Below are positions 15,190 to 50,721 of a stretch of DNA of 64,000 nucleotides, one piece after another. Numbering within the stretch: the first letter of the stretch is position 1; each line of letters starts with the position of its first letter. The notes beneath the pieces are model-generated. The model was not told where the DNA came from, searched no databases, and saw nothing but the letters and a program-made list of their open reading frames with translations. The translations under genes and the position numbers were made by a program. Origin of the DNA: Crossiella cryophila (GTDB lineage: Bacteria; Actinomycetota; Actinomycetes; Mycobacteriales; Pseudonocardiaceae); contig NZ_JACHMH010000001.1 of NCBI RefSeq assembly GCF_014204915.1, forward strand, positions 6,907,501-6,971,500, read 5' to 3'.

Positions 15190-15339
15190 CCGGCAAAACC
15201 CCAGCTCAGAGCCTGTTGCAGTGCGGCAGGCAGACGGGTGACCGGCTCCAGTTCCGGTCCAGCCGGGCGGCCAGGCGATCTCGGTACGGTAATGACCGGG
15301 CTCCTTACCTGAAACATCGGCAAATTGGGGTGGCCGCGC

Positions 15340-18362: not shown

Positions 18363-18372
18363 GGAGCACAAC

Positions 18373-20351: not shown

Positions 20352-20377
20352 ACGGACTCCCTTCCAGGACAACGGTC

Positions 20378-22721: not shown

Positions 22722-23422
22722 CGCAGGCGCCAGCCCAGCAGCTCGTCCGGCGCGTCGGCCCGGTCGAATCCGGCCGCGGCCAGTTCGGCGTCCAGCTCCG
22801 CCTCGGTGATCGGATAGGCGTCGATCTCCTCGCGTTCCTCGATCCCCGGCTCCTCGCCGACGGTGATCCGGTAGGACCAGCTCAGTCGCAGCACGCCTTC
22901 GCGCACCGGGCGGCCCTCGTACTCGATGTCGTAGCGGGCCCGGCCGACCTGGAGGCTGCCCGCGGCGGGCGGGATGGCCTCGGCGGAGGAGGGTTCGGGC
23001 CGGTCCTGCAACAACAATCCGCCGGGGTTGAGCGAATCAGCGCAGACCTGCCAGAGTTTCTGGCGTTCTTCCGGGGAGAAGCAGAGCAGCATGCTGATCA
23101 GCACCACCGCGTCCACCCGCACCGGCAACCGCACCGCCAGCGCGCTCATCGGCATGACGGTGACCCGGCGTTGCAGGTCGGGTCTGCGGGCCAGGCGGGA
23201 CATCAGCACCGCGCGCATCGGCGCGGCCGGTTCCACCGCGAACACCTCGCCGGGACTGGCATCGGCGATGGTCTCGGTGACCAGTCCGGTGCCAGCGCCC
23301 ATTTCGAGGACGCCGTTGGCGCAGTCGGCCACCGCCTTGGCCACCGCGCGCTGGGTGGGTTCCTTGTACGGCAGGGCGAAGAGTTCGTGGTACTGGGCCA
23401 TATACGTGTAACGGTCAGTCAT
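22718..23422 (-). CDS. SAM-dependent methyltransferase
   Basis: A 234-residue class I methyltransferase. Motif I is VLEMGAGTGLVTETIA, with an acidic residue after the next strand (VFAVEPAAPM) and the post-motif LNPGGLLLQDRPEP. I chose ATG at 23422, with GGAGAGG 11 bases upstream; a GTG nine codons earlier is possible. It overlaps the radical SAM gene upstream by 8 bases and the P450 downstream by 4, so all three should be translated together. The substrate is probably an O or N site on the cluster product. Confidence 0.88.
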   Translation of the reverse strand: MTDRYTYMAQYHELFALPYKEPTQRAVAKAVADCANGVLEMGAGTGLVTETIADASPGEVFAVEPAAPMRAVLMSRLARRPDLQRRVTVMPMSALAVRLPVRVDAVVLISMLLCFSPEERQKLWQVCADSLNPGGLLLQDRPEPSSAEAIPPAAGSLQVGRARYDIEYEGRPVREGVLRLSWSYRITVGEEPGIEEREEIDAYPITEAELDAELAAAGFDRADAPDELLGWRLR

Positions 23423-25364: not shown

Positions 25365-25407
25365 GGGCTCCGTCCTCACCTCAGTGTCCGAAGTAGACAG
25401 TGCGTGC

Positions 25408-26565
25408 TCACCAGGCGACCGGCAGGGCGCTGGGGCCCTGGTCGAGCAGGCCGGCCCGTTGCGGCAGTTCGTCCACTGGCACCGCCAGCCGCAGGGTGGG
25501 GAAGGTCTGGGTCAGCGCGGTGAAGGCTTCCTGGAGTTCGAGTCGGCCGACCGCGGCGCCCAGGCAGTGGTGCACGCCGTGCCCGAAGGCCAGGTGCAGG
25601 TTGGCCGGGCGGGTGCGGTCGAAGCGGCCGGAGTCCGGGAAGCGTTGCTCGTCCCGGTTGGCGCAGGCCGGTGGCGCGATCACGGTGTCCCCTGCCTTGA
25701 TCAGCACCTCGCCGATCCGGACGTCCTCCTGGGCGATCCGCACCAGGCCGCCGATTTCCGAGGCGTAGCGCAGGATCTCCTCGATCGCGCCGGGCACCAG
25801 GGACGGGTCCTCGACCAGTTCGAGGTAGTCCTGTGGGTGGGTGAGCAGGGTGAGCGCGCCAAGGCCGATGGTGTTGCCTGCGGTGACGTAACCGGCGATC
25901 AGGATGCTCTCGGCCATGGTGAGCAGTTCCCGCTCGTTGAGCCGGTCGTTGTCCTCCTCCCGCACCGAGATCAGGTCGCTCAACAGGTCTGGGCCGGGGT
26001 TGCGTTGCTTGTCCGCGATCAGCCCGGCGCAGTACTCGTCCAGGCTCTTGCCGGCGGCCATCACCTCCTCCTGGCTGAACGCGTCCAGCGACAGGATCGC
26101 CTCCGACCAGCGCCGGAAGTCGGCCTGGTCGACCACTGGCACGCCGAGCAGTTCGGTGATCACCCCGATGGACATGGGGAAGGCGAATATCTCCACCAGG
26201 TCCGCGGGCGGTCCGGCCGCGGCCAGGTCCCCGGCCAGTCGCTTGGCCAGGTCCTGCACCTTGGGGCGTAAGGCTTCCACCCCGCGCACGGTGAACGCCT
26301 TGGACACCAGCCTGCGCAACCGGGTGTGCCCCGGCGGGTCCTGGAACAGCGAGTCCTCGGTGGCCGCGGCCGCGCCGGGCGCGCGCACCCCGAAGCGCAG
26401 ATCCGAGAGCACGAAACGGATGTCCTCGTACCGGGTGACCAGCCAGGCCGGTTCGCCGGAGTTGGTGGTGACCCGGCTGACCGGCTCCTGGGCCCGCAGC
26501 CGCGCGTACTCCACCGGCGGTTCGGTGACGGACGGGCGGGCGAACGGGAAGGGCGGTGCCCCCAT
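25408..26565 (-). CDS. Cytochrome P450 lacking the I-helix acid
   Basis: A 385-residue P450 with a normal heme loop (FGHGVHHCLGA) and ExxR (EEILR). Its I-helix reads LIAGYVTAGNTIG: the Glu/Asp of AGxE/DT is Val, though the Thr is kept. The proton-delivery pair is therefore incomplete and catalysis may rely on substrate or water, as known for some P450s acting on unusual substrates. ATG at 26565 follows AAGGAG. It is 14 bases downstream of a similar P450 and 43 bases upstream of the radical SAM gene. The two neighbouring P450s are clear paralogues (shared LFQDPPGH and HHCLGAA). Confidence 0.92.
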   Translation of the reverse strand: MGAPPFPFARPSVTEPPVEYARLRAQEPVSRVTTNSGEPAWLVTRYEDIRFVLSDLRFGVRAPGAAAATEDSLFQDPPGHTRLRRLVSKAFTVRGVEALRPKVQDLAKRLAGDLAAAGPPADLVEIFAFPMSIGVITELLGVPVVDQADFRRWSEAILSLDAFSQEEVMAAGKSLDEYCAGLIADKQRNPGPDLLSDLISVREEDNDRLNERELLTMAESILIAGYVTAGNTIGLGALTLLTHPQDYLELVEDPSLVPGAIEEILRYASEIGGLVRIAQEDVRIGEVLIKAGDTVIAPPACANRDEQRFPDSGRFDRTRPANLHLAFGHGVHHCLGAAVGRLELQEAFTALTQTFPTLRLAVPVDELPQRAGLLDQGPSALPVAW

Positions 26566-26579
26566 CGGCGTCTCCTTCG

Positions 26580-27770
26580 TTACCAGGTCACGAGCAGGGC
26601 GGCGGGGCTCTGGTCGAGCAGGCCGGTGCGCATCGGGATGCGCTCCACCGGCAGCACGGTCCGCAGCAACGGGAAGGCCGAGCTGAGCACCTCCAGGGTC
26701 ACCTGGAGTTCCATCCGGCCCAGCGCGGCGCCCAGGCAGTGGTGGATGCCGTGGCCGAAGGCCAGGTGCGGATTGTCCGGCCGGGTGATGTCGAAGCGGG
26801 CCGGTTCGGTGAACAGCTCCGCATCGCAGTTGGCCGCGCCCAGCTCGGCGAAGACGGTGTCGCCCTTGCGGATCAGCGCCGGACCCAGTGGCACGTCTTC
26901 CTTGGCGATGCGCATCAGGCCGCGTTTGCCGAACTGGCAGCGCAGGATCTCCTCCACCGCGCCCTCGATCAGCCCGGGATCGGCGACCAGGCGGTCGTAC
27001 TGGGCGCGGTTGCTCAGCAGGGTGAGCATGCCGAGGGTGATCGCGTTGACCGTGCTGACGTGCCCGGCCACCAGCAGGGTGACCGCCATGGTGCGCAGTT
27101 CGCCGGTGCTGAGCCGGTCGTCCTCGTTGTCCCGCACCGCGATCAGCGCACTCATCAGGTCGCTGCCGGGCTTCTGGCGCTTGGCCTCGATGAGTTCGGC
27201 CACGTACCCGTTGAGGTTCTGCCAGGCCGCGCCGATCTGCTCGGGGGTGTGCGCGGTCATGCTGACCACGGCTTCGGACCAGGCGCGGAACTCGGCCCGG
27301 TCCGGCGCGGGCACGCCGAGCAGTTCGCTGATCACGGTGATGGACAACGGGAAGGCGAAGTCGGTGACCAGTTCGGCAGGCGGGTAGTCCGTGGCCATCG
27401 CCCCGGCCAGCCGGTCGGCGGTGCGCACCACGGCGGGCCGCAGCTCGGCCATCCGGCGGGCGGTGAAGGCCCGGCCGACCAGGCGGCGCAACCGGCTGTG
27501 CCCCGGCGGGTCCTGGAACAGCGACTCCTCCGGCCCGTCCTCGGCGTTGTCCCCGGCCGCGCCGGCGAAGCGGATGCTGAAGCGGGGATCGGCGAGCACG
27601 AACCGGACGTCCTCGTACCGGGTCACCATCCAGGCGTGCGTGCCGTTCTCGGTGATCACCCTGGCCACCGGGTTCTCCGCGCGCAGCCGGGCATAGGCCG
27701 CGGGCGGTTCGGTGATCGAGGGCTGGGCCAGCGGCAGCGACACCGCCGGGGCACGCTCGGGTGCGCTCAT
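26580..27770 (-). CDS. Cytochrome P450 lacking the I-helix acid, first gene of the unit
   Basis: A 396-residue P450 with heme loop FGHGIHHCLGAA and ExxR in EEILR. The I-helix reads LLVAGHVSTVNA, so the acidic residue is Val and the Thr position is Ser. It starts with ATG, with GGAG 6 bases upstream. It is the first gene of the five-gene minus-strand unit and divergent from the second radical SAM gene; the ~200-base gap (27771-27973) must hold both promoters. It is similar along its length to the P450 downstream, which suggests tandem duplication. Confidence 0.92.
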   Translation of the reverse strand: MSAPERAPAVSLPLAQPSITEPPAAYARLRAENPVARVITENGTHAWMVTRYEDVRFVLADPRFSIRFAGAAGDNAEDGPEESLFQDPPGHSRLRRLVGRAFTARRMAELRPAVVRTADRLAGAMATDYPPAELVTDFAFPLSITVISELLGVPAPDRAEFRAWSEAVVSMTAHTPEQIGAAWQNLNGYVAELIEAKRQKPGSDLMSALIAVRDNEDDRLSTGELRTMAVTLLVAGHVSTVNAITLGMLTLLSNRAQYDRLVADPGLIEGAVEEILRCQFGKRGLMRIAKEDVPLGPALIRKGDTVFAELGAANCDAELFTEPARFDITRPDNPHLAFGHGIHHCLGAALGRMELQVTLEVLSSAFPLLRTVLPVERIPMRTGLLDQSPAALLVTW

Positions 27771-27973
27771 GCACGTCTCCTCACACCGCCGCCGGGGATC
27801 CGGAATCGAGTACTGACGCTAGAGAACGGCGCTGGTCATGCGGCTGCACCCGCACTGGAGCGAACCGGCGCCGCCGTCCAGTTCTGGTGCAGTCCGGCGC
27901 CAAGCGGACCGCCGTAGGGTCCGGGACCGACATCGCCTTGGGCTGTGTGCCCAGTGGACGGAGGCGCACCGAG

Positions 27974-29881
27974 ATGACGACCGTGGCACTGGTGGAGATC
28001 CACTCCTGGCACAGCTTCCTACCGCTGGTATCCGGCTACCTGCAGAGCTACGCCCGCCAGGACGAGGCGGTCGCGCAGCGGTACGAGTTCGAGATCCTGT
28101 CCCGGCACACCTCCGACGGCCGGGTCAACCTGGTCGCCGAACTGGCCGAGCTGGACAGCGATATCTACGCGTTCAGCTGCTACATCTGGAACGGCACGCT
28201 GGTCCGCGAGGTGCTGGAGGACCTGGTCCGGTTGCGGCCTGACGCGCAGTACCTGCTGGGCGGGCCGCAGGTGATGAACCACGGCGAGGACTACATCCCG
28301 GCCGGGGCGCACAACGTGGCGGTGTGCAACGGCGAGGGCGAGATCACCTTCCTGGAGTACCTGCGCGAACTGGCCGCCGAGTCACCGGATCTGGGGCGGG
28401 TGCCCGGGTTGAGCTTCCGCCGGGACGGCCGGGTGACCACCACCCTGCCCGCGGCCCGGATCAAGGAACTCACCGAGGTGCCGAGTCCGTTCGTGGCCAA
28501 CCTGTTCACCGATTCGACCTACCACGTGGCGGTGCTGGAGACCAACCGCGGCTGCCCGTTCCGCTGCGGTTTCTGTTACTGGGGCGCGGCCACCAACGAC
28601 AAGGTGCACCGCTTCGAGATCGACCGGGTCAAGGCCGACATCGAGTGGATCGCCCGCAACAACATCTACGCGGTGATGATCGCCGACGCCAACTGGGGCC
28701 TGTCCGCACGCGATATCGAGCTGACCGAGTACATCGTGGAGTGCAAGGAGAAGTACGGCTTCCCGTACTGGGTGACCATCCAGTCGGCCAAGAACAGCCC
28801 GGAGCGGGTGTCCAAGATCGTGGACATCCTGTTGCGCGGCGGGCTGATCACCCGCCAGCCCATCTCGCTGCAGAGCGTCAGCGACGAGGCGCTCACCCTG
28901 ATCGAACGCAAGAACATCAAGCGGGAGACCTACTCCGAACTCCAGGCCGACCTGCGGGCCCGCAACATCCCCTCCTTCATCGAGCTGATCTGGCCACTGC
29001 CCGGGGAGACCCTGGCGTCCTATGTGGACGGAATCGTGCAGCTGTGCCGCACCGGCGCGGACATGATCAACGTGTACCCGCAGCTGTTGCTGCACAACAC
29101 GCCGATCTACGAGCAGCGGGAGATCTTCGGCGTGGTGACCGAGCGGGTGCCCAACCCGGTGGGCGAGGCCGAGCTGGTGGTGCGCACCAAGTGGGTCGAC
29201 CGGGAGCAGTACGACGAGGGTGTGTGGTTCTGGTACGCGCTGCTGTCCCTGTACGACTCGCGCGGGCTGTACTTCGTCTCCAGCTACCTGGACCGCAACG
29301 GGATCGCGCCCTTCGACGAGGTGTTCAAGGCGGCGATCGCGTTCTTCAAGCAGCGGCAGGACTTCGAGCTGTGCCGCTACATCAAGCACTCGGTGGAGAC
29401 CCTGGACCACTACGAGTACAGCAACGGCGGCCTGGTGGCACACCGGATCCAGCACAGCATGCGCCAGGACAACGACCGGCTGATGCACGAGTTCGCCTCC
29501 AGCCAGCCATGGTGGTCGGATCCGACCGTGCGCGCGCTGTTCGAGCTGGACATGGTGGCCCGGCCCTACCCCTACATCGAACCGGTGCAGGAACCCGGGG
29601 TTCCGTTGAAGGAGGTGGACATCTTCGAGCTGGGCGAGCACCACCTCACCGTGGACCTGCCGCCGCACCTGGTCGCCGAACTCATCGAGCGCAAGCTGCT
29701 GGACGATCCCGCCGTCCGCCGGGTCCGGCTGGACTTCACCGGCAAGAACAAGCAGGTCTGCGCGGATGAGGACGACGCGCTCGCCAACGGCCTGTACTGC
29801 GCCAACCTGCTGGAGCAGATGCTGGACATGCTGCCCGAGTACCAGGTCTGCGATGCCGCACTGACGGGAGAGACCCGATGA
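27974..29881 (+). CDS. Second cobalamin-binding radical SAM enzyme
   Basis: A 635-residue class B radical SAM protein with an N-terminal B12-binding-type domain (YAFSCYIWNG, YLLGGPQVMNHG, VCNGEGEITFLEYL). The [4Fe-4S] motif is at Cys194, Cys198 and Cys201 (GCPFRCGFCYWGA). It shares the layout of the protein at 23415-25364, including VxETNRGCP and SAKNSPERVSK-like barrel segments, and so is a diverged paralogue. The C-terminal 250 residues contain no known motif. ATG at 27974 follows GGAGG with a 10-base gap. The next P450 starts within its stop (ATGA). A C-methylation or other radical step on the cluster product is likely. Confidence 0.88.
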   Translation: MTTVALVEIHSWHSFLPLVSGYLQSYARQDEAVAQRYEFEILSRHTSDGRVNLVAELAELDSDIYAFSCYIWNGTLVREVLEDLVRLRPDAQYLLGGPQVMNHGEDYIPAGAHNVAVCNGEGEITFLEYLRELAAESPDLGRVPGLSFRRDGRVTTTLPAARIKELTEVPSPFVANLFTDSTYHVAVLETNRGCPFRCGFCYWGAATNDKVHRFEIDRVKADIEWIARNNIYAVMIADANWGLSARDIELTEYIVECKEKYGFPYWVTIQSAKNSPERVSKIVDILLRGGLITRQPISLQSVSDEALTLIERKNIKRETYSELQADLRARNIPSFIELIWPLPGETLASYVDGIVQLCRTGADMINVYPQLLLHNTPIYEQREIFGVVTERVPNPVGEAELVVRTKWVDREQYDEGVWFWYALLSLYDSRGLYFVSSYLDRNGIAPFDEVFKAAIAFFKQRQDFELCRYIKHSVETLDHYEYSNGGLVAHRIQHSMRQDNDRLMHEFASSQPWWSDPTVRALFELDMVARPYPYIEPVQEPGVPLKEVDIFELGEHHLTVDLPPHLVAELIERKLLDDPAVRRVRLDFTGKNKQVCADEDDALANGLYCANLLEQMLDMLPEYQVCDAALTGETR

Positions 29882-31068
29882 CCACCCAGGACATGCCCGC
29901 CCTGCCCTTCGACCGTCCGACCATCCTGGACATCCCGCCGATGCTGCGGATCCTCCAGGCCGAGCGCCCGATCACCAAGGTGCGCACCATGATGGGCGAT
30001 GAGGCCTGGCTGGTCACCCGCTACGACGAGGCCAAGTACCTGTTCACCGACCCGCGCCTGATCCGCTCGCACCCGGACCCGGAGAACGCGGCCAAGGTCA
30101 GCGAGTCGGCGATGATGGGCGGCCCGGTCGGCACCTACGAGACCGAGGACTACGACCACACCCTGATGCGCTCCCTGCTCGGCGGTTCCTTCTCCGCCAA
30201 GCGGATGCGGATGCTGCGGCCCCGGATCGGCGGCCTGGTCGACGACCTGCTGGACGAGATGGCCAAGAAGACCCCGCCGGTGGACCTGCACCAGGAACTC
30301 GCCTTCCCGTTGCCGGTGCTGGTGATCTGCGAACTGCTGGGCGTGCCGTATGAGGACCGCGAGCAGTTCCGGATCTGGTCCGAGGGCGCCGCGGACATGT
30401 TCAACGGCGAGCACTCGCTGGAACAACTCACCGAACTGCGTGCCTACACCGGATCGCTGATCGAGAAGCGCCGCAAGGACCCCGGCGAGGACGTGATCTC
30501 CGACATCGCCCGCGCCTACGACGAGGGCAAGCTGAACATGGACTACGCGGTCGGCCTGGCCACCGGCCTGCTCTTCGCCGGCCACATGACCACCGTGGTG
30601 CTGGTCGAGTTCGGCACCCTGCACCTGTTGACCTATCCCGAACAGCGCCAGCGGATGCTCGACGACCCGGCACTGGTGGAGCCCGCGGTGGAGGAGATGC
30701 TGCGGTTCACCGACGCCGGCGGCGGCAACTTCGTCCGCTACGCCCGCGACGAGATCAAGATCGGCGACGTCACCATCAACTTCGGCGAGGCGGTGCTGAT
30801 CAGCGGCATCGCCGCCAACCGGGACCCGCGCTTCTGGGACGACCCGGACACCTTCGACATCGGCCGGGAGACCAACTCGCACCTGTCCTTCGGCAGCGGC
30901 AGGCACCTGTGCATTGGCGCGACCCTGGCCAGGGTGGAGCTGGAGGCGGTGTTCAGCCGGTTGTTCCAACGCTTCCCGACCATGCGGTTGGCGGTGCCGG
31001 TGGAGGAACTCGAACTCCTGGACAACCTGCTGCCGGGCGGGTTGGTGAGCCTGCCGGTCACCTGGTAG
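29878..31068 (+). CDS. Cytochrome P450 with Met in place of the I-helix acid
   Basis: A 396-residue P450, heme loop FGSGRHLCIGA and ExxR in EEMLR. The I-helix is LLFAGHMTTVVLVEFG, so the acid is Met while both Thr are kept. ATGA overlap with the radical SAM gene implies coupled expression and probably linked chemistry. The alpha/beta hydrolase gene follows after 10 bases. Together with the two P450s on the opposite strand it makes three cluster P450s without the usual acidic residue. Confidence 0.92.
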   Translation: MTTQDMPALPFDRPTILDIPPMLRILQAERPITKVRTMMGDEAWLVTRYDEAKYLFTDPRLIRSHPDPENAAKVSESAMMGGPVGTYETEDYDHTLMRSLLGGSFSAKRMRMLRPRIGGLVDDLLDEMAKKTPPVDLHQELAFPLPVLVICELLGVPYEDREQFRIWSEGAADMFNGEHSLEQLTELRAYTGSLIEKRRKDPGEDVISDIARAYDEGKLNMDYAVGLATGLLFAGHMTTVVLVEFGTLHLLTYPEQRQRMLDDPALVEPAVEEMLRFTDAGGGNFVRYARDEIKIGDVTINFGEAVLISGIAANRDPRFWDDPDTFDIGRETNSHLSFGSGRHLCIGATLARVELEAVFSRLFQRFPTMRLAVPVEELELLDNLLPGGLVSLPVTW

Positions 31069-35322: not shown

Positions 35323-36303
35323 CTACCAGCGGTTGGCGACCTGCGGGGCGATCAGCTCGTCGTAGACCTCGCGCACCGTGGCCAGGGTCTGCTCGTCCAG
35401 TGGCGCGAGATCGGCCGCGGCGGCGTTGCCGCGGGCCTGTTCGGCGTTGCGAGCGCCCGGGATCACCACACTCACCCCGGGCTGGTCGATGATCCAGCGC
35501 AGCGCGAACTGCGCCATCGTCGCCGCGTCCGGGACCAGCGGGGCCAGGCGCCGCACGGCTTCCAGGCCGGTGGTGTAGTCGACGCCGGAGAAGGTCTCGC
35601 CGACGTCGAAGGCCTCGCCGTGCCGGTTGTAGGTGCGGTGGTCGTTCGCGGCGAAGACGGTGTTCTCGTTGTACCGGCCGGAAAGCAGGCCGCTGGCCAA
35701 CGGGACGCGGGCCAGGATGCCGACGCCCGCTGCCGCGGCGGCAGGCAGGACCTCGGCGAGGGGGGCCAGGCGGAGCATGTTGAGGATGATCTGCACGCTG
35801 GCCACGCCGGGGCGGGCGATCGCGGTCAGGGCTTCGGCCCTGGTCTCCACGCTGACGCCGTAGGCGGCGATCCGCTTCTCCGCGACCAGGGTGTCCAGGT
35901 TGTCGAAGACCTCGTCCGAGGAGAAGACCGCGGTGGGCGGGCAGTGCAGCTGGACCAGGTCCAGGGTGTCCACGCCCAGGTTGGTGCGGGAGCGGTCGGT
36001 CCAGGCGCGGAAGTTGTCCAGGGTGTAGTTGGCCGGGTCCTGTTCGACCCGGCGGCCCATCTTGGTGGCCACGGTGATGCCGTCGCCGTGGGAGGCCAGG
36101 AACTGGCCGACCAGGCGTTCGCTGCGGCCGTCGCCGTAGACGTCGGCGGTGTCGATCAGCGTCATGCCCGCCGCGGCGGCCGCCTCCAGCACGGCCAGGG
36201 CCTGGTCCTCCTCGACCTCGCCCCAGTCCGCGCCGAGCTGCCAGGCGCCCAGCCCGACCACGCCGACCTGCCTGCCGGTCCGCCCCAGAACTCGCTTCTC
36301 CAC
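35323..36303 (-). CDS. Aldo/keto reductase
   Basis: A 326-residue NADPH-dependent reductase with the (beta/alpha)8 AKR fold. The catalytic Asp and Tyr are in IDTADVYGDGRSE, Lys in TVATKMGR, and His in LVQLHCPP; the cofactor-binding end is VVIPGARNAEQ. I prefer GTG at 36303, with AGAGG 6 bases upstream; ATG at 36318 adds five residues (MERNT). It is divergent from the terpene synthase-P450 gene across ~170 bases. It is possibly a tailoring reductase, though such genes are also common outside clusters. Confidence 0.88.
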   Translation of the reverse strand: MEKRVLGRTGRQVGVVGLGAWQLGADWGEVEEDQALAVLEAAAAAGMTLIDTADVYGDGRSERLVGQFLASHGDGITVATKMGRRVEQDPANYTLDNFRAWTDRSRTNLGVDTLDLVQLHCPPTAVFSSDEVFDNLDTLVAEKRIAAYGVSVETRAEALTAIARPGVASVQIILNMLRLAPLAEVLPAAAAAGVGILARVPLASGLLSGRYNENTVFAANDHRTYNRHGEAFDVGETFSGVDYTTGLEAVRRLAPLVPDAATMAQFALRWIIDQPGVSVVIPGARNAEQARGNAAAADLAPLDEQTLATVREVYDELIAPQVANRW

Positions 36304-36476
36304 CGTGTTCCTCTCCATCACCAGGTGCTCGACTCCGCAAGCATCTCACGCAACGTAGCAACCCTTAGGACAATCCGGAACTTCGCCACCTCCGTGGGGT
36401 TAACCAGGTTGTCCGGCCGGATTTGCGCTGCTTACCATCGTGAATCAGCCACCGCACCGGACCCGGGAAGTCACAT

Positions 36477-38708
36477 GTGCTCAGCCAGGATCACCCGCCG
36501 GGCCAGCGCATGACGGATACGCTGCGTGACGCGATTCGCTACCGGCTGCCGGACCTGGTCGCCCCGTTCCCACCTCCGCCGCGCCGGGCCGACTGGGCCG
36601 GTTTGCGGGCGCGGACCTGCCGGTGGGGCGAGCGGCACGGGGTGATCAGCCTGCGCGGGCGTGGGCGGCTGCTCGGGTCGAATCTGCTGGACCTGGGTGG
36701 CGCGATGCTGGGCGGCGCCGACCCGGGGCGGGCCTCGGTGCTGCTGGACTGGTTCCTGTGGATGCTGCTGCTGGACGACCGGGTGGACAACGGTCCGTGG
36801 GCGGAGCAGGACGGGCTGGCCGCCTTCGCCGTCGCGGTGGCCGAGGCGACCCGGCCGACAGCGCTCCCACCGCCGATCCGGCCGCCTGATCCCGCCGCCG
36901 CCGAGCCGATGAGCGCGGTGCTGGCCAACGACCTGTGGCCACGCACCGCCGCTCTGGGCGGGCTTGACTGGCAACGGCGGTTCACCCGGCACCTGGCCGA
37001 ACATCTTGCCGCGCAAAGGGAATCGGTCCGACTGCGTGGCCTGCCGGACGCCGTGCTGCCGGAATCCGCCTACGCCCCGCTGCGTCGGGCGCTCTTCGGC
37101 GCGGACGTCTTCTTCGACCTCATCGAGGTGCTGGACGGTCCGGAGTCCGAACCGAACGAGTCCACCCAGCGCCTGCGGGAGTGCGCCGCGGACGCGATCG
37201 CCTGGACCAACGACGTGTACTCGCTGGAGAAGGATCTCGGCTTCGGCGAGTCGGCGAACCTGGTGCTGGTGCTCAGGAACGAGCTGGACCTGTCCTGGCA
37301 ACAGGCCGTGGACGCCGCCGAGCAGGCGATCATGCGGCGCACCAAGGAGTTCGAACGCCTTGCGGCGCAAGCGGAAAGCTCGTTCCCGCGACGGCTGGGC
37401 GAGACGATCCGCGCCTCGCTGGACTGGCATCGGGACAGCAGTCGCTACCGCAGGCAGCAGGCCATTCCCGGTCCGGCGCTGGACCTGGTGGACAGTGCGC
37501 GCACGGTGCCGAGTCTGCTGTGGCCGGACTGCGAGCACGACCCGTACGCCTTCTATGCCTTGCTGCGCAACCGTTTCCCACTCTTCTACGACGAGCCGAT
37601 CGACACCTGGTTGCTGAGTCGCTACGAGGACGTCCGCCTCGTCCTCACCGATCCCCGGTTCAACTCGGCCAACTACGTCTGGCAGCTCGCGCCGGTGGTC
37701 GGCCCCACCATCATGCAGATGGACGGCCCGGAACACAGCAAGCACCGCGCGGTGATCACCCCCGCCTTCCTCGGCAAGGCACTGGCCGGGCTGCGGGTGG
37801 AGGTCCAGCGGATCACCGACGACCTGGTGGCCGGGGTGCTGGAGCGGTTGCGGCACGGGCCGGTCGACCTGGTCGAGCACTTCACCCGGCTGCTGCCGCA
37901 CCGCACGGTGATCTCCGTGCTCGGCCTGCCGCCCGCCGACGAAGCCCATTTCCTGCGCTGGTTCCCGACCCAGATCTCCTTCCTGGCCAACGATCGGCAG
38001 GACCCGTCCCTGTTCGCGCGGGGCCGCACCGTGCGCGCGGAGTTCTCCGCCTACCTCGACGACCAGATCGCCCAGCGCCGCCGGAATCCTGGCCCCGACC
38101 TGCTTTCCAACCTGTGTCAGGCCACTGTGGACGGACAGCCGCTGGCCGACGAGTTGATCAGGGGCTTCTGCGCCAACCTGGTCGGCGCGGGCAGTGAGAG
38201 CACCGACAAGGCGATGGCCTCCTACCTGGTCAACCTGCTGGAGAACCCGTTGGCGCTAAACGAAGTCCGGGCTGATCCGGCCGAGGTCACCCCGCGGGCC
38301 TGGGCGGAGAGCCTGCGGCGCAACCCGCCCTTCCACGTGGTCAGCAGGCAGACCAGCGAGGCGGTCGAGCTGCCGATCGGGCGGATCCCGGCGGGGGCCA
38401 CCGTCGGCTGCGTGGTGGGCTCGGCCAACCGCGATCCGGTGCGCTTCCCCGACCCGGACGCCTACGACCTCACCAGGTTCGCCGAGGCCACGGTGGCCAG
38501 GGAGTTCACCGCCAGGGCCAGTCAGCTGAGCCTGGGCGCGGGCAGGCACTTCTGTCTGGGCGCCCGATTGTCCTTGGTGGAGGCCGAGATCGGCGTCGGC
38601 ACCCTGCTGCGCGCCCTGCCCACCCTGCGCTGGGCACCCGGCTTCACCCCCCGGGAGATCGGCAGGCTGGTGCGGGCACCCGCGGAGCTGCTCGTGGTCG
38701 CGCCCTGA
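36477..38708 (+). CDS. Terpene synthase-cytochrome P450 fusion protein
   Basis: A single 743-residue frame joins two enzymes. Residues ~12-330 are a class I terpene synthase. Its Asp-rich motif is DDRVD at 100-104, the NSE triad NDVYSLEKD at 245-253 and the C-terminal RY pair at 323-324, all intact. From about residue 345 to 743 it is a P450. Its I-helix is AGSEST at 571-576, ExxR is ESLR at 611-614, and the heme loop is LGAGRHFCLG with Cys693 (Leu replaces the usual Phe at the start of the loop). The linker is only about 15-20 residues. The P450 would oxidise the hydrocarbon made by the first domain. GTG at 36477 follows GGGAAG by 6 bases; ATG at 36510 is the alternative. No polyprenyl synthase gene directly adjoins it. 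A C15 product is likeliest by size, but that is inference. Confidence 0.93.
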   Translation: MLSQDHPPGQRMTDTLRDAIRYRLPDLVAPFPPPPRRADWAGLRARTCRWGERHGVISLRGRGRLLGSNLLDLGGAMLGGADPGRASVLLDWFLWMLLLDDRVDNGPWAEQDGLAAFAVAVAEATRPTALPPPIRPPDPAAAEPMSAVLANDLWPRTAALGGLDWQRRFTRHLAEHLAAQRESVRLRGLPDAVLPESAYAPLRRALFGADVFFDLIEVLDGPESEPNESTQRLRECAADAIAWTNDVYSLEKDLGFGESANLVLVLRNELDLSWQQAVDAAEQAIMRRTKEFERLAAQAESSFPRRLGETIRASLDWHRDSSRYRRQQAIPGPALDLVDSARTVPSLLWPDCEHDPYAFYALLRNRFPLFYDEPIDTWLLSRYEDVRLVLTDPRFNSANYVWQLAPVVGPTIMQMDGPEHSKHRAVITPAFLGKALAGLRVEVQRITDDLVAGVLERLRHGPVDLVEHFTRLLPHRTVISVLGLPPADEAHFLRWFPTQISFLANDRQDPSLFARGRTVRAEFSAYLDDQIAQRRRNPGPDLLSNLCQATVDGQPLADELIRGFCANLVGAGSESTDKAMASYLVNLLENPLALNEVRADPAEVTPRAWAESLRRNPPFHVVSRQTSEAVELPIGRIPAGATVGCVVGSANRDPVRFPDPDAYDLTRFAEATVAREFTARASQLSLGAGRHFCLGARLSLVEAEIGVGTLLRALPTLRWAPGFTPREIGRLVRAPAELLVVAP

Positions 38709-38749
38709 GTGCGGCGTGCTAGCTTGGAGGTGGTCGTCGGCGACGGCGG

Positions 38750-38801
38750 CCCCGGACGAGCGCGTCGTACCCGGCTTCGACAAGACGGCGCAGTGGGCAA
38801 T
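38750..38801 (+). ncRNA. Guanidine-III riboswitch (mini-ykkC/PRK-III class)
   Basis: CCGGACGAGCGCGTCGTACC then CGGCTTCGACAAGACGGCGC matches the conserved guanidine-III aptamer (CCGGACGAGG, GTACCCGG and ACAAGACGGCGC). CCGG at 38752 pairs with CCGG at 38771 (P1). GCGTCGT pairs with ACGGCGC, with one G-U, to form the pseudoknot stem. It lies 30 bases upstream of an SMR exporter gene, the usual target. It should switch on expression when guanidinium binds. The ribosome site GAGG is at 38821. Confidence 0.9.
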
Positions 38802-38830: not shown

Positions 38831-39142
38831 ATGGCGTGGGTTGTGCTGGTCATTTCCGGTGTTTTCGAGGCGGTGTGGGCGGTCGCGCTCAGCGTGTCCG
38901 ACGGTCTGCGCCGCCCGGTGCCGACGATCGTGTTCGTGGTGGGGCTGGTGCTGAGCATGGGCGGACTGGCCTACGCGTTGCGCCAGATCCCGGTCGGCAC
39001 CGGTTATCTGGCCTGGGTGGGCATTGGCGCGGTGGGCGCGACCGTCTACGGCATGGTGGCCAACCAGGATCCGGTGACCGTGGCCAGGGTGCTCTGCCTC
39101 GGGCTGGTCGTGGCCGGTGTGGTGGGGCTGAAGGTGCTGTGA
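38831..39142 (+). CDS. gdx: SMR-family guanidinium exporter (Gdx/SugE type)
   Basis: A 103-residue, four-helix membrane protein of the small multidrug resistance family. The essential Glu is in ISGVFEAVWAVAL of helix 1, and helix 3 has IPVGTGYLAWVGIGAVG. Subtype is set by the guanidine-III riboswitch directly upstream, since riboswitch-linked SMR proteins export guanidinium in exchange for protons. It works as a dual-topology dimer, so one gene is enough. ATG at 38831 follows GAGGTGTCTG. A strong hairpin starts at its stop codon. Confidence 0.9.
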   Translation: MAWVVLVISGVFEAVWAVALSVSDGLRRPVPTIVFVVGLVLSMGGLAYALRQIPVGTGYLAWVGIGAVGATVYGMVANQDPVTVARVLCLGLVVAGVVGLKVL

Positions 39143-40952: not shown

Positions 40953-40986
40953 TTGTTTGGCCAGGATGTCAACGATTTCCCGGCAA

Positions 40987-42564
40987 TCAGCCCAGGGCCG
41001 CGGTCAGCTCCAGCCACAGCGCGAGCCGCACCCCGGGGTGGCCAAGATCGATCCCGAACAGCTCGCCCGCCCGGCGCAGCCGCTGGCGCACGGTGTTCTG
41101 GTGCACGTGCAGGGTTTCCGCGGTGGCGCTGATGTCGCCGGAAGCCCGCAGGTAGGTGAGCAGGGTGTGCCCGTACTCGGTGCCGCCGCGCTCGTCGTGC
41201 GCGCGGATCCGCTCGGCCAGGCCGGTGCGCAGTTCGGGGCGGGAGGCCACCAGGTCGGTGACCCGGCGCAGCACGATCTCGGTGCGCAGCCCGTCCAGCT
41301 CGGCCAGGCCGGTGGTGCCGGTGCGGTGCAGGTGGGTCAGGGCCGCGTCGGCGTCGGCGCGTTGCGCGCACAACTCCGCCGGGGTGGTGATCAACGCGCC
41401 CAGCACCGCCCGGCACGGCCCGCGCAGACTCGCCCTGGCCCGCTCCAGGAGCTGTCCGGCGAAGATCACCGCCTGCGCGCGCTCGGGTTCGCCGCCGGGC
41501 AGCAGCAGGTAGAGCCGGTCCTGGGCCAGGGTGGCGGCCACCTCGATACCGAAGGCGCGCCCGGCCAGCACGGCCAGGTCGAGCAGGTGGCTGCCGGTGA
41601 GCCTGCGCTGGGTGGGTTCGGCCTCCGCCGGTGGCGCGAGGGCGAGCAGGTGGGCGGGCAGGTCCAGGCCGGTGGCGTGTTCGGCGGAGTCCAGTGCGGT
41701 GCGCAGGGCGGCGTTGCGGCGGTCCTGGTCGGCGTCGGCGTGCCTGCGCAGCTGCAACAGGTGCAGCGCGGCGAGGTGGGCGGCCTGGTGCAGGGCAGGC
41801 GCGCAGGCGGCCGGATCGACCTCGTCCTCCACCAGCATCCACAGCGAGCCCAGCACCTCCGGCCCGGCGCGGATGACCAGGCCGAGTCGGACCATGTCGC
41901 CGGGCCGGGCCACCCGGACCGGTTCCTGGCTGTTCCAGACCTCGGCGAGCAGGTGGTAGGGCAGCGCGTCCTCGGGTACCCGGCGGAGCAGGATGCCGCG
42001 GCGGCGGGTCTCGTCGATGCGCTGGCCTGCCAGGCTGGAGTAGGCCAGCACCACGTGGTCGGTGTCCATGATCGCCACCGCCCCGCCGACCAGTGCCGCG
42101 GTGGCGTTGGCCAGCGCGAACAGGTCGCCGGTCGGCACCGTGACCAGTGGCGCGATCAGCGGCGGGACCGGGCCGGAGGCGCTGGGGTCCGAGCGCAACA
42201 CGGTGGCGCACAACAGTTGCAGCCGCGGCCAGGGCAGTTCGGCTGCCGCGTCCAGCACCGCCAGCCCGGCCAGTTCGCCTGCCGCGCGCACCGTGTCCAC
42301 CGAGTGGCCCCTGCTCTTGATCACCAGCGCCGCGGCCGGTCCGGCGGCGGCCCGCTGGATGGCGGTGGTGAGCCGGAGCTGGCCGGGGACCAGTCCGATG
42401 CCCAGCAGCAGCGCACCGGGTTCGACCGGGGCCGGATCGGTGGTGTCCAGCAGTTCCGGCGTGCCCACCGGGTGGTCCAGGCCGTGTGGCGCGCAGACGA
42501 CTCCGGCCAGTGCGGGGCCGAGCAGGTCGACCAGCTCGGCCAGGGTGATGCGGGCGGTGGTCAC
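40987..42564 (-). CDS. PucR/CdaR-type transcriptional regulator
   Basis: A 525-residue regulator. It has an N-terminal PucR ligand-sensing domain (ITLAELVDLLGPALAGVV onward), a GGDEF-like middle region, and a C-terminal HTH of the PucR family (GHTLLTYLRASGDIS, HVHQNTVRQRLRRA). GTG at 42564 follows GAGGAGGAGCC; a longer frame to 42666 is unlikely. It is divergent from the FAH-RraA gene, with an 18-base perfect palindrome between them. It probably controls that gene in response to a catabolic intermediate such as a ring-cleavage or purine breakdown product. Confidence 0.9.
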   Translation of the reverse strand: MTTARITLAELVDLLGPALAGVVCAPHGLDHPVGTPELLDTTDPAPVEPGALLLGIGLVPGQLRLTTAIQRAAAGPAAALVIKSRGHSVDTVRAAGELAGLAVLDAAAELPWPRLQLLCATVLRSDPSASGPVPPLIAPLVTVPTGDLFALANATAALVGGAVAIMDTDHVVLAYSSLAGQRIDETRRRGILLRRVPEDALPYHLLAEVWNSQEPVRVARPGDMVRLGLVIRAGPEVLGSLWMLVEDEVDPAACAPALHQAAHLAALHLLQLRRHADADQDRRNAALRTALDSAEHATGLDLPAHLLALAPPAEAEPTQRRLTGSHLLDLAVLAGRAFGIEVAATLAQDRLYLLLPGGEPERAQAVIFAGQLLERARASLRGPCRAVLGALITTPAELCAQRADADAALTHLHRTGTTGLAELDGLRTEIVLRRVTDLVASRPELRTGLAERIRAHDERGGTEYGHTLLTYLRASGDISATAETLHVHQNTVRQRLRRAGELFGIDLGHPGVRLALWLELTAALG

Positions 42565-42579
42565 GGCTCCTCCTCGGCT

Positions 42580-42597
42580 GATGTCGGATCCGACATC
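42580..42597. promoter_or_regulatory. Perfect 18-bp palindrome, operator candidate
   Basis: GATGTCGGATCCGACATC is its own reverse complement. It lies 15 bases upstream of the PucR-type start and 93 bases upstream of the FAH-RraA start. TGTCGGA/TCCGACA dyads resemble operators of GntR-type factors, so the binder could be a protein encoded elsewhere as well as the adjacent regulator. Confidence 0.6.
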
Positions 42598-42690
42598 GGG
42601 TGCCCGGTGAAGTGTGGCGGGACCGCCATTGTCCAGATTGACGCCGGGGTAGCAAGCTGCCAGCACCCCCGACTGCGGAAGGGACCACCC

Positions 42691-44076
42691 GTGTCCGGAG
42701 ACGACGATGGCCCGCTAGCCCAGCGCCCTGGCAAGGTCATCGCGGTCCGGGCGCACCGGCCGGGCCACCCCTCCTACTACCTGAAACCGGCCACCGCGCT
42801 GACCGGCTCCGACCAGGTGGTGCTGCGCCCGCAGGGCTGCCTGGCGCTGGGCGTGACCGCGCGGTTCGCGCTGGTGATCGGCGAACGGGCCCGCCGGGTG
42901 CCGCGCGCGGAGGCGTTCGGGCACCTGGCCGGGCTGGCCGCGGCGCTGGAGTTCACCGTGTTCGACCTGCACGCCGCCGACGACGGTTCGGCCTTGCGCA
43001 GCAACGGCATCGACGGCTCCACCCCACTCGGCCCGGCGTTGCCCGCCATCCCCGCCGACCTGTCCGGGCTGGAACTGAGCTGCCACGTCAACGGCGAACT
43101 CGCGCACCGGGTCACCGCCGAGGAGCTGGCCTTCGACTTCGGCTACCTGGTCGCCGACCTCTCCCGCACCCTCACCCTGGAACCCGGCGACCTCATCCTC
43201 ACCGGCGGCCCGCCGCGCGCCCCGCTGGTCGAGCCCGGCGACCGGGTCGAGGTCACCCTCACCGGCTGCCCGCCACTGCGCGCCCGCATCCGCCAGGACC
43301 CCGAACCCCTGGGCGTGCCCGGCGCCCAACCGGCCTTCGGCGAGACCGAACGCCAGGCCGCGCACGGCCCCGGCACCCTGGCCGCCGAGACCATCACCCG
43401 GCTGCGCGAGGTCAGCACCGCCACCGTGGCCGCCCAGCTCCGCCAGCACGGCGTGGCCGGCCACCTGATCACCGGCGTCCGCCCCACCCGCCCCGACCTG
43501 CGCCTGGTCGGCCTGGCCCGCACCCTGCGCTGCCTGCCGCTGCGCGAGGACGTCTGGCGGCTGGACCCCGCAGGCCTGGACGTGCGCGCCCGCACGGTGG
43601 AGGAGATCGCCCCCGGCGAGGTCCTGGTGATCGACGCCCGCCAGGACCCCGGCGCGGGCACCATCGGCGACATCCTGGCCCTGCGCGCGGCCGGCCGGGG
43701 CGCGGCGGGCATCGTCACCGACGGCCCGCTGCTGGCCGCGGACTCCTTCGCCGGGCTGCCCCTGCCGGTGTACCACCGCGGCGGGCACCCGGCCGGGCTG
43801 GAGGCGCGGCACGTGCCGTGGGAGTCCCAGGTCGCGGTGGCCTGCGGCGGCGTGCTGGTGCAGCCGGGGGACGTGCTGGTCGGCGACGCGGAGGGGGTGC
43901 TGGTGGTGCCCGCGGGGCTGGCCGAGGAGGTGGCGCGGTCGGCGGTGGAGCAGGAGGCGCGGGAGGGGTTCGTCCGGGAGCAGGTGCGGGCGGGGGCCGG
44001 GCTCTCGGGCTTGTACCCGATGAACACGGTGTGGACCAACCGGTTCCGGGCCGGCGGGGCCGAGCAGGCGGGCTAG
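42691..44076 (+). CDS. FAH-RraA fusion: fumarylacetoacetate hydrolase domain joined to RraA/aldolase-like domain
   Basis: A 461-residue protein. Residues ~15-200 are a FAH-family domain (LGPALPAIP, LEPGDLILTGGPP), the fold of hydrolases and decarboxylases in aromatic meta-cleavage pathways. Residues ~230-440 are an RraA/HMG-aldolase-like domain (STATVAAQLRQHG, GAAGIVTDG, PGDVLVGDAEGVLVVP). The usual DGxxRD metal/substrate motif of the aldolases reads DGPLLA, so the Arg and Asp are missing. The FAH metal ligands are also not clearly preserved. GTG at 42691 follows GGAAGGGA. Its likely role is two steps of a dicarboxylic keto acid pathway, under control of the divergent PucR-type regulator. The exact substrate is unknown. 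Confidence 0.82.
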   Translation: MSGDDDGPLAQRPGKVIAVRAHRPGHPSYYLKPATALTGSDQVVLRPQGCLALGVTARFALVIGERARRVPRAEAFGHLAGLAAALEFTVFDLHAADDGSALRSNGIDGSTPLGPALPAIPADLSGLELSCHVNGELAHRVTAEELAFDFGYLVADLSRTLTLEPGDLILTGGPPRAPLVEPGDRVEVTLTGCPPLRARIRQDPEPLGVPGAQPAFGETERQAAHGPGTLAAETITRLREVSTATVAAQLRQHGVAGHLITGVRPTRPDLRLVGLARTLRCLPLREDVWRLDPAGLDVRARTVEEIAPGEVLVIDARQDPGAGTIGDILALRAAGRGAAGIVTDGPLLAADSFAGLPLPVYHRGGHPAGLEARHVPWESQVAVACGGVLVQPGDVLVGDAEGVLVVPAGLAEEVARSAVEQEAREGFVREQVRAGAGLSGLYPMNTVWTNRFRAGGAEQAG

Positions 44077-48239: not shown

Positions 48240-48650
48240 GTCCCGCTGCTCGACGACGAAGCAGTGGTCGTTGGCGAAGAACCGCACAATCGCCGCCCGC
48301 CCTACCAGGTGATGGGTTGTGCGGCTGATGTGCGAGTGGTGCCGCATCCGGCGGTCACGTTGGTACTGGGGTTCGGTGACGGGCCGGTGGTGGTAGGCGT
48401 CGCGAGTGGTGATCAGCGGCGGGGGAATCTGGTTGCCGGGTATTTGCGTGGTGGGTTGCGCTTGCGGAGCTGGATGGGGTTGTGGCAGCGGTTTCGGGGG
48501 CAGGTGGGGTTGGGGCCCAAGCGGGCGGCTCGGTTGGTTCGGTTTGATTGGGCGGTGCATCGGGAGGTGGTGGGGTTCAGCGGGGTTACGCCGGGGGTGG
48601 TGGCTGGGGAGGAGTGGTTGGCGGTGGATGGGTTGGCTTGGCCTGTGTGA
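48240..48650 (+). pseudogene. AraC-family regulator relic with internal deletion
   Basis: The frame keeps an N-terminal AraC-type piece (VVPHPAVTLVLGFGDGPVVVG). It then jumps directly to the end of an AraC helix-turn-helix (LWQRFRGQVGLGPKRAARLVRFDWAV). About 100 or more residues that normally lie between, including the first helix of the DNA-binding domain, are missing. A functional start is not evident. Its 3' end runs into the convergent NB-ARC/TPR gene. It is best read as a decayed regulator gene. Confidence 0.6.
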
Positions 48651-50721
48651 GCAGGGCTTGCACGCTCGTTGCCCGGTGGTCGCCGAAGTCCTCGAAGATG
48701 GCCAGCGCTTCCTGCCAGCACTCGATCGCCCGAGCGGTCTCACCCATGTGACACAAAGAGATCCCCAACATCTGAAGGCATCTGGCCCTCCCATACGGGC
48801 GATACTCGTTAGTGGACAAGGATTGCTCGTACAAGGCAACGGCCTGCCGATGTGCCCTCAATCCCTGGTGAGCACGGGCCATCAGTTCGAGTGACCACGA
48901 TTCGGCCAATCGATCAGGTGCTTGACGCTGGAGGACAACGGCGCGCTTGGCGTGACGGAGGGCCTGTTCGTAGTTGCCGAGCCCGGCGTGCGCCACGCTG
49001 AGGTGACTCTCGATGGCTCCTTCCTGTCGCCCGCGCTGGGCACCACCACTCAGGGGAAGCGCCTCTTGGAGGTAGTCGAGAGCTTCGACGTACCGTTCCT
49101 GGTGGTTGCACCAGTACCCGAGGTTCAGCAGTGCGCCCGCTTCGCGCCGCCGATCGCCCAGCTCTCGTGCCAATCCCGCCGCCCCCTGATACGCCTGGAA
49201 CGCCTCTTCCAGAAGGGAAAGCTCCTGCAACGTCACACCCATGCAGTTCAGTGCGGCGACCTCGGCGACCCGATTACCGACACGTCGCGCCAGCTGCAGA
49301 CGAAGCCGGTTGAGTTCCAACTCGTCGACGGCAGACTCCCGTGCGAACAGGAATCCCACCACTGCGGTGAGAAGCACGAGCGCGAGATCTTCCTCGGCAC
49401 AGTCGGCGCTGCTCCGGGCAACGGCGACAAGATTGTCACGCTCCTCGGCCGCCCATCCCCAGGCGACAGCCGCCTCACTGAAAGTGATCACCGGATGAGC
49501 CGCGGTGGGTGTCTCCAGGATTGGGAACCAAGATGCGAGGGCGGGCGCGGCGACCTGGTAGGCGACCTTGGCGTGGTGGGCGTACCACTCGAACAGAATT
49601 CGTTGTAGGCGGGCACAATCCTCAGTCTCGACGAGTTCGGCAGCGTAGGCACGGAGCAAGTCGTGCAGACGGTAGCGATCCCGGGCTACCCGTTGCAGGA
49701 GGTGTGCGTCGGCGAGTGCGCTGAGCAGTCGCCGGGCTGGGTTGAGGCCGGTTTCGCCAAGTGCGGCAGCCACCGGCAGGCTGATCTCGGGGCCCGGATG
49801 CAGCCCCAGTCGTCGAAACATCCGCGCTTGCTCGTCGGCGAGCTTGCGATAGGACCAGTCGAAGACCGCCCGCACCGCCAGGGTCTGGTCCCCGGTGTCG
49901 CTGAGGATGTCCAGTCGGGCCCGATCTTCGGCCATCTCCGTGACGAGTTCGCCAACCGTCGCGTATGGATGGGCGGCGGCGATACGCAACGCCAATGGCA
50001 GCCGGGCGCAGTAGCGGATCAGCGCGGCGACCGCCAGGGGTTCGGCGGCGATCCGGGCTTCGCCGAGTGTTGTTCGCAGGAGTTGGTATGCCTCAGCGGG
50101 ATTGAGCAGATCCAGAGTGAAACGGTTGGCCGCCTCACCGACCACCAATCCGGTCAGGCTGGACCGACTCGTTATCAGCACCATGCAGCCGGGACTGCCC
50201 GGCAGTAACGAACGAACCTGCTCGACCGCGTTCGCGTTGTCCAGCACGATCAGCACCCGCCGCCCCGCCAGCACCGACCGATACAACCCGGCCTGCGCCT
50301 CCACCCCCAACGGAATCCGTTCCGCCGCAACACCAAGTGCCTGGAGAAATCCCGCCAGCACCTCCTCCGGATTCGCCGGCGTGGCAGGACCGTACCCGCG
50401 CAGGTTGACGAACAGCGTCCCGTCCGGGAAGTGCTGCTGCACCCGGTGCGCCCAGTGCACCGCCAGCGTCGTCTTGCCGACCCCCGCGGTCCCGTCCACC
50501 GCCGAGATCACCACCGCCCCGCCCTCCGCCAGCAGGGCATCCAGTGCCGCCAGCTGTTCCGCCCGGCCGGTGAACCCCGGCACCGCCAATGGCAGTTGCC
50601 GGGGAACGACCGGTGGCGTTCCGGTGCCGGTGAAGGTCAGGTGGTGGATGGAGCCCGCCTGCACCACCGCGCCCGGATCGCCACCACGAAACTGGTTGTG
50701 CGCGCCCGGGGGGTCGGCCAT
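48586..50721 (-). CDS. NB-ARC ATPase with TPR repeats (AfsR-like without DNA-binding domain)
   Basis: A 711-residue STAND protein. A short N-terminal segment (AGSIHHLTFTG) precedes an NB-ARC module with the FTGR motif at ~50, Walker A GTAGVGKTT and the VLIVLDNAN Walker B. A winged-helix part follows (FDWSYRKLADEQARMFRRLGL), then about six tetratricopeptide repeats from ~430 to 690. The SARP DNA-binding domain of AfsR is absent, so it probably signals through protein contacts. The tail is Pro-rich and overlaps the AraC relic. It starts with ATG. The LPMO gene ends 14 bases upstream on the same strand. Confidence 0.88.
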   Translation of the reverse strand: MADPPGAHNQFRGGDPGAVVQAGSIHHLTFTGTGTPPVVPRQLPLAVPGFTGRAEQLAALDALLAEGGAVVISAVDGTAGVGKTTLAVHWAHRVQQHFPDGTLFVNLRGYGPATPANPEEVLAGFLQALGVAAERIPLGVEAQAGLYRSVLAGRRVLIVLDNANAVEQVRSLLPGSPGCMVLITSRSSLTGLVVGEAANRFTLDLLNPAEAYQLLRTTLGEARIAAEPLAVAALIRYCARLPLALRIAAAHPYATVGELVTEMAEDRARLDILSDTGDQTLAVRAVFDWSYRKLADEQARMFRRLGLHPGPEISLPVAAALGETGLNPARRLLSALADAHLLQRVARDRYRLHDLLRAYAAELVETEDCARLQRILFEWYAHHAKVAYQVAAPALASWFPILETPTAAHPVITFSEAAVAWGWAAEERDNLVAVARSSADCAEEDLALVLLTAVVGFLFARESAVDELELNRLRLQLARRVGNRVAEVAALNCMGVTLQELSLLEEAFQAYQGAAGLARELGDRRREAGALLNLGYWCNHQERYVEALDYLQEALPLSGGAQRGRQEGAIESHLSVAHAGLGNYEQALRHAKRAVVLQRQAPDRLAESWSLELMARAHQGLRAHRQAVALYEQSLSTNEYRPYGRARCLQMLGISLCHMGETARAIECWQEALAIFEDFGDHRATSVQALLTQAKPTHPPPTTPPQPPPPA

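Follow-up and report, generated by a model that had tools for sequence, protein, structure and literature searches.

A terpene synthase-cytochrome P450 fusion gene of Crossiella cryophila belongs to a rare, conserved family of candidate terpenoid enzymes

The stretch of 64,000 nucleotides analysed here (the window) carries at 36477-38708 of the plus strand a reading frame in which a terpene synthase appears to continue directly into a cytochrome P450. The question is whether this frame encodes one genuine two-domain protein and, if so, which reaction that protein would catalyse. The ORF translation was unbroken over 743 residues, and the motifs that a first-pass annotation had read in it (DDRVD, NDVYSLEKD, RY, AGSEST, ESLR and the heme Cys) were all found at their places (Table 1). 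The Pfam search returned Terpene_syn_C_2 at residues 91-291 (E 7.6e-28; 98.1 bits against a cut-off of 23.7) and p450 at residues 517-713 (E 2e-24; 86.7 bits against a cut-off of 22.8), and no ferredoxin or reductase domain was detected by Pfam within the 743-aa protein. The synthase domain spans residues ~20-324, whereas residues 1 to ~20 are poorly conserved, and translation may start at either GTG 36477 or ATG 36510 (residue 12).

Table 1. Positions of the fusion gene, its parts and the surrounding block in the window
Feature	Position	Strand	Basis or remark
2397-bp block, absent from same-genus genome G001 (45 bp instead)	36317..38713		flanks align at 92.5% and 95.2%
Fusion gene, terpene synthase + cytochrome P450, 743 aa	36477..38708	+	open frame, both Pfam domains, full-length homologues
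Class I terpene synthase half, residues 1-324	36477..37448	+	Terpene_syn_C_2 91-291, alignment, model
DDRVD metal-binding motif, residues 100-104	36774..36788	+	LDDR(V/I)D in 10/10 fusions
NDVYSLEKD, NSE-type with Asp as third ligand, residues 245-253	37209..37235	+	Asp in 10/10 fusions
RY pair, residues 323-324	37443..37448	+	SRY in 10/10 fusions
Interdomain linker, residues 325-354, including GTG 338	37449..37538	+	SRY-to-DP spacing across fusions
P450 core, residues 355-743	37539..38705	+	Pfam p450 517-713; TIGR04538 profile match 350-740
I-helix AGSEST, residues 571-576	38187..38204	+	sequence, alignment
ESLR, ExxR motif, residues 611-614	38307..38318	+	E(S/T)LRR in 10/10 fusions
Heme loop LGAGRHFCLG, Cys = C693	38532..38561	+	alignments

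The linker between the two domains comprises 20-30 residues: 20 from RY to the first residues conserved among P450s (PSLL, 345) and 29 from SRYR to DPY (355), so that the earlier estimate of 15-20 residues was about right. The third-position GC content was 0.85-0.88 in 60-residue windows spanning the junction, as expected for a single coding frame. To obtain a structural view of the junction, the window protein was modelled from an alignment of 45 rows, which superseded a poor initial model from 7 rows (pLDDT 72.2, pTM 0.51). The resulting model contained two domains, with a mean pLDDT of 92.5 and a pTM of 0.90; blocks of the linker scored 66-89, and residues 1-10 were the sole segment of at least three residues with a pLDDT below 50. 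The pTM value agrees with a well-defined arrangement of the two domains in the model and does not show a channel between them. A search of a viral fold library returned P450 matches and one weak terpenoid synthase.

Next, full-length homologues were sought in genome and plasmid collections, and two-domain proteins were found both in other genomes and on a Pantoea plasmid. The fusion occurred in 7 of 390 genomes of the same family, the window's own included (G000, G137, G282, G121, G120, G132 and G278); the copy of G137 is 55% identical to the window protein over residues 19-739. A scan of genome contigs gave 15 loci, of which only that of Nocardia vinacea was full-length (740 aa; 49-50% identity, aligned over residues 22-740). 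Of 150 genomes from the genus of G571 searched with the synthase-half profile, two carry the fusion: G1193, which is apparently N. vinacea because its match begins at the same contig base, and G1172, whose fusion is 94% identical to that of G1193 over 740 residues. Among 72,556 plasmid records, one match covered at least 80% of the query: gene PAT9B_RS30320 of plasmid pPAT9B01 of Pantoea sp. At-9b (match H1), with 41% identity to the window protein. This copy is annotated merely as "cytochrome P450", so that the fusion is hidden by its annotation. In another plasmid match (H7), the synthase and the P450 are separate genes. The count is thus ten fusions in sequenced bacteria or plasmids of two phyla, including the close pairs G121-G120, G282-G278 and G1193-G1172.

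Nine of the ten fusions are read in one frame, and the tenth, in G278, is interrupted by contig ends. Its two matches overlap at query residues 459-467 and break off close to contig ends, one 8 bases short of the end in a contig of 16,951 bases and the other 60 bases short in a contig of 6,231 bases; they were taken as a single gene divided by a contig gap. The spacing between SRY(H/R) and DP(Y/H) is 25-31 residues in nine fusions and 85 in that of G132 (L057 8766-11174), the linker of which is an in-frame repeat of the PGDNGRGD type of ~60 residues. Outside these genomes the gene was scarce. No match at E 1e-45 came from the other four genomes of the window's genus. In an even sample across the order (397 genomes), full-length matches at E 1e-120 were confined to G000 and G137, and in one across the class (394 genomes, likewise evenly sampled) the synthase profile found nothing above 151 bits except the window's own gene. 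Judged from the aligned sequences, the terpene synthase-P450 fusion is a genuine, conserved family and, at the same time, a rare, patchy and sporadic accessory gene.

The active-site motifs were then compared across the family. LDDR(V/I)D, NDxxSxxKD, SRY, E(S/T)LRR and GAGRH(F/Y)CLG, including the heme Cys, aligned in all ten fusions. Some positions within or near these motifs deviate from the common pattern. The NSE motif retains its N and S, but its third ligand is Asp in every fusion, compared with Glu in all 16 standalone synthase rows examined; the first residue of the heme loop is Leu in the window protein and Phe in the other nine; and the I-helix acid is replaced by Val in the Pantoea protein. 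In addition, the heme loop of the fused P450s reads GAG, whereas in the 11 nearest free rows the Gly is preceded by L or P, and that residue in turn by A, C or I. The Asp ligand, the Leu of the window protein and the Val of the Pantoea protein may tune or weaken activity, or may mean that activity has been lost.

To trace the origin of the fusion, a tree was built for each half from rows above 165 bits (P450s) or 80 bits (synthases) in BLAST, with exact repeats removed and weaker relatives absent. All ten fused rows formed one clade with a support of 100/100 in the P450-half tree (48 rows) as well as in the synthase-half tree (39 rows). Given this single clade for each half, the fusion most likely arose once, after which the halves would have descended jointly. 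Trees of the two halves with nine fusion rows did not conflict at the starred nodes (Pantoea with G132, G121 and G120; G282 with G278), whereas they disagreed at unstarred ones: G282 and G278 were grouped with N. vinacea in the synthase tree (89/78) and with the Pantoea group in the P450 tree (86). The position of the Pantoea row as sister to three actinobacterial rows suggests a transfer between Actinomycetota and Pseudomonadota, in a direction that we infer; that row is long-branched and has a letter composition unlike the others.

The pairwise dN/dS values of the halves (Nei-Gojobori), which are rough owing to codon bias and saturation, were 0.445 (synthase) and 0.348 (P450) for G121-G132; 0.228 for the synthase and 0.191 and 0.263 for the P450, in two pieces, for G282-G278; and 0.467 and 0.588 for the window and G137. 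The near-identical pair G121-G120, with few changes, gave 0.559 and 0.21. The linker (25-26 codons) gave 1.24, 1.34, 0.74 and 0 over the four pairs. With dN/dS below 1 in the four pairs compared, both halves look constrained.

The two halves differ in their closest relatives. Among the 390 same-family genomes, no close standalone relative turned up for the synthase half: the best non-fused match reached 94 bits, compared with at least 212 for the fusions. For the P450 half, free relatives are numerous, at ~40-47% identity. The earlier statement that the two enzymes are normally separate genes in actinomycetes fits these results, the nearest non-fused relatives of the P450 half being free P450s. 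As a separate observation, a gene on a plasmid of Actinarchaeum halophilum (L146 2158-3579), annotated as "SRPBCC family protein", is 36% identical to the synthase half and lies near two polyprenyl synthetase genes.

In the window, the fusion gene stands alone between an aldo/keto reductase gene (35323-36321, minus strand) and an SMR transporter gene that is preceded by a Guanidine-III riboswitch. The block of ~2.4 kb that is lacking in G001 holds only the fusion gene and 160 bp upstream of it, and in G002 the fusion gene plus the SMR part is missing between the same outer flanks. Either a gain in the window genome or a loss in G001 could explain the block, at the edges of which no insertion-element ends or target duplications were seen in the repeat list. 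The SMR transporter (38831-39142) was set aside as a terpene exporter, and because a Guanidine-III riboswitch (38730-38794) precedes its gene, it is most likely a guanidine exporter; its SugE-like match (100.3 bits) lies below the cut-off of 126.

Several other regions of the window were recorded alongside the fusion. Upstream, the genes at 15325-20372 encode a squalene-hopene-cyclase-like protein, a P450, a polyprenyl synthetase and a UbiA prenyltransferase, which suggests a separate meroterpenoid-like cluster. The region 21489-31068 contains several P450s and two B12-binding radical SAM proteins, one of the KedN5 methylase family (23415-25379; 996.3 against a cut-off of 700) and the other a diverged relative (27761-29881; 305.6). 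Downstream, FAA-hydrolase and RraA-like domains share a single long frame at 40957-44076, which could represent a second fusion unless the frame is over-long.

The neighbours of the fusion gene were compared among loci, leaving out L127 and L157, and gene calling was incomplete in the Nocardia locus, which is less GC-rich. No immediate neighbour was common to the fusion loci generally, and the idea that they share a gene cluster was rejected. Apart from the P450s of cluster C0, C4 was the only cluster, among those present in at least three loci, that occurred in three fusion loci (window 48586-50721, L057 and L059); it does not adjoin the fusion and is present in two free-P450 loci too. A SAM methyltransferase gene overlaps the 3' end of the Pantoea fusion by 4 bp, and a gene resembling 3-beta-HSD/2-alkyl-3-oxoalkanoate reductase, below the family cut-off, follows the fusion of G137 by 75 bp. 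EF-hand and Leg1 proteins are encoded near the fusion of G121 and a response regulator near that of G278, while the neighbours tested near the fusions of G282 and G132 had no Pfam match.

In N. vinacea, a GGPP synthase gene starts 94 bp past the fusion (IdsB equivalog; 499.2 bits against a cut-off of 475), and in G1172 the fusion, a standalone synthase, a standalone P450 and a GGPP synthase (IdsB; 504 against 475) lie in this order on one strand (L157 5355-11079). The presence of a GGPP synthase downstream of both Nocardia fusions suggests GGPP as the substrate, and a diterpene as the product, in these two loci only. In the eight non-Nocardia loci or stretches tested, several of them limited by contig ends, a search for GGPP synthase homologues at E 1e-4 returned nothing but a 32% match in the window, 17 kb away. 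The idea of a single-gene route to an oxygenated terpene is only roughly right: no ferredoxin or reductase domain was detected in the protein, and G1172 has an additional synthase, P450 and GGPP synthase in a row with its fusion.

Taken together, the motifs and domains indicate that the protein is probably a bifunctional terpenoid enzyme, in which cyclisation would be followed by P450 oxidation of the product. The N-terminal half would bind a prenyl diphosphate via Mg2+ held by DDRVD and by the NSE motif in its NSD form, ionise it and cyclise it, and the attached P450 would oxidise the resulting hydrocarbon or alcohol if the two steps are coupled. Electrons would come from a ferredoxin and a reductase encoded elsewhere. 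By analogy with the Nocardia members, GGPP is the most likely substrate and FPP the alternative, and the oxygenated terpenoid formed would most likely be a diterpenoid. The fusion was most likely born once, and it would have spread among actinobacteria and reached the Pantoea plasmid.

One observation against bifunctional catalysis is that the free relatives of the P450 half often adjoin conservon operons, not terpene genes. Clusters C1 and C2, which are conservon-like, adjoin the free P450 in 7 of 13 loci (L060-L072). In L072, Pfam confirmed a set of HATPase, roadblock, DUF742 and ATP-binding genes together with a P450-like gene that had no Pfam match, whereas in L066 the roadblock gene alone was confirmed among the conservon-like neighbours. 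Both halves might accordingly be active on different substrates, with the fusion merely fixing co-expression and stoichiometry and the P450 acting on another metabolite, and the second synthase and second P450 alongside the fusion of G1172 agree with such a division. This explanation is improbable, however, as the free P450 relatives fall outside the fused clade, GGPP synthase genes neighbour the fusions in Nocardia, and P450s are described as the commonest modifying enzymes in terpene clusters (PMC11574762).

It is unlikely to a similar degree that one half only is catalytic and that the other acts as a lid or a structural partner, the role suggested for the reductase remnant in EutB, a bacterial cyclase fused to a truncated HMBPP reductase (PMC11574762). 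That precedent, the Asp ligand of the NSE motif and the unusual heme loop of the window protein and I-helix of the Pantoea protein speak for it, but the catalytic motifs of both halves are retained, with those changes, throughout the family, both halves appear constrained, and neither domain is truncated in comparison with the profiles or in the model.

Finally, the junction was examined for signs that the bifunctional protein is accompanied or replaced by a free P450. Of 12 free P450 frames as called, 7 begin 13-17 residues before the conserved DP and 5 exactly 17, and GTG 338 of the window (37488-37490) also lies 17 residues ahead of the DP motif. At this position Val is found in six of the ten fusions, with the codon GTG in three of them (window, G132, Pantoea) and GTC in the other three (G137, G282, G278); the remaining fusions have Ile (ATC; N. 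vinacea and G1172) or Ala (GCG; G121 and G120), so that a start codon is not conserved there. The junctions of G282 and G278 contain no ATG, GTG or TTG anywhere, and an ATG at -18 in N. vinacea is AGG in the 94%-identical G1172. A ribosome-site score gave 1-4 of 6 for start codons in the junctions and 2-5 of 6 for the starts of free P450s, a poor separation and hence a weak test. These codons suggest that the one at -17 is likely a fossil start of a former P450 gene that has lost this role, and that production of a free P450 is not conserved among the fusion genes. Separate products for the two halves, which the first-pass annotation had named as a refuting outcome, are thus unlikely, although the window does keep a GTG at the common start. 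Assembly or sequencing error and chance joining, the former also named there, are ruled out by the full-length homologues in other assemblies. That a sequencing error joins two genes, or that a free P450 is made from an internal start, either in addition to the fusion or in its place, is accordingly highly improbable: in its favour stands the GTG exactly where free P450s often begin, and against it the nine fusions of other assemblies in a single frame, or broken solely by a contig end, the unconserved start codon and the in-frame linker repeat of G132.

The candidate bifunctional enzyme was compared with known systems. Standalone actinobacterial class I synthases (pentalenene, caryolan-1-ol and isoafricanol synthases; PDB 9m25) belong to the same family and share the motif order, but they lack a P450 and have the NSE Glu where the fusions have Asp; 9m25 was the top PDB match of the synthase-half profile (146 bits). 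When the whole protein was compared with PDB sequences, CYP134A1/CypX (PDB 3nc3) ranked first, over residues 345-741, and it also led the fold matches of the initial, weaker model; it has no synthase domain. The window protein scored below the cut-offs of both TIGR04538, the cyclodipeptide synthase-associated P450 family (246.6 against 500), and NF051859, the bifunctional albaflavenone monooxygenase/terpene synthase family (41.8 against 700). Albaflavenone synthase CYP170A1 likewise combines P450 and terpene synthase activity in one polypeptide, but both of its active sites lie within one P450 fold and it is not known as a two-domain fusion. In geosmin synthase and the prenyltransferase-cyclase chimeras, a terpene synthase is joined to a second isoprenoid enzyme, that is, another synthase or a prenyltransferase and not an oxidising enzyme.

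Full-text searches of an open-access library, in which most subscription papers are missing, turned up no published terpene synthase-P450 fusion; the nearest system was EutB. This cyclase likewise carries a second enzyme-derived domain, but its partner is a degenerate reductase, not a P450, and of the P450s in its cluster one is a separate gene and one is split over three fragments (PMC11574762). In PMC12298776 and PMC11234867, the passages retrieved refer to P450s solely as genes that are adjacent or clustered.

Terpenoid chemistry has two core catalysts, cyclases and P450s, which normally are separate proteins. Artificial cyclase-P450 fusions have been engineered to speed the hand-over between them. 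In the natural fusion, rigidly packed halves might channel the nascent hydrocarbon out of the cyclase pocket and directly into the heme pocket, and the gene might constitute a terpenoid module transferable between Actinomycetota and Pseudomonadota; this extension of the proposed function is rather doubtful. Since nature has retained this fusion in ten genomes or plasmids, the family would offer a ready test of whether joining the two catalysts improves flux or selectivity.
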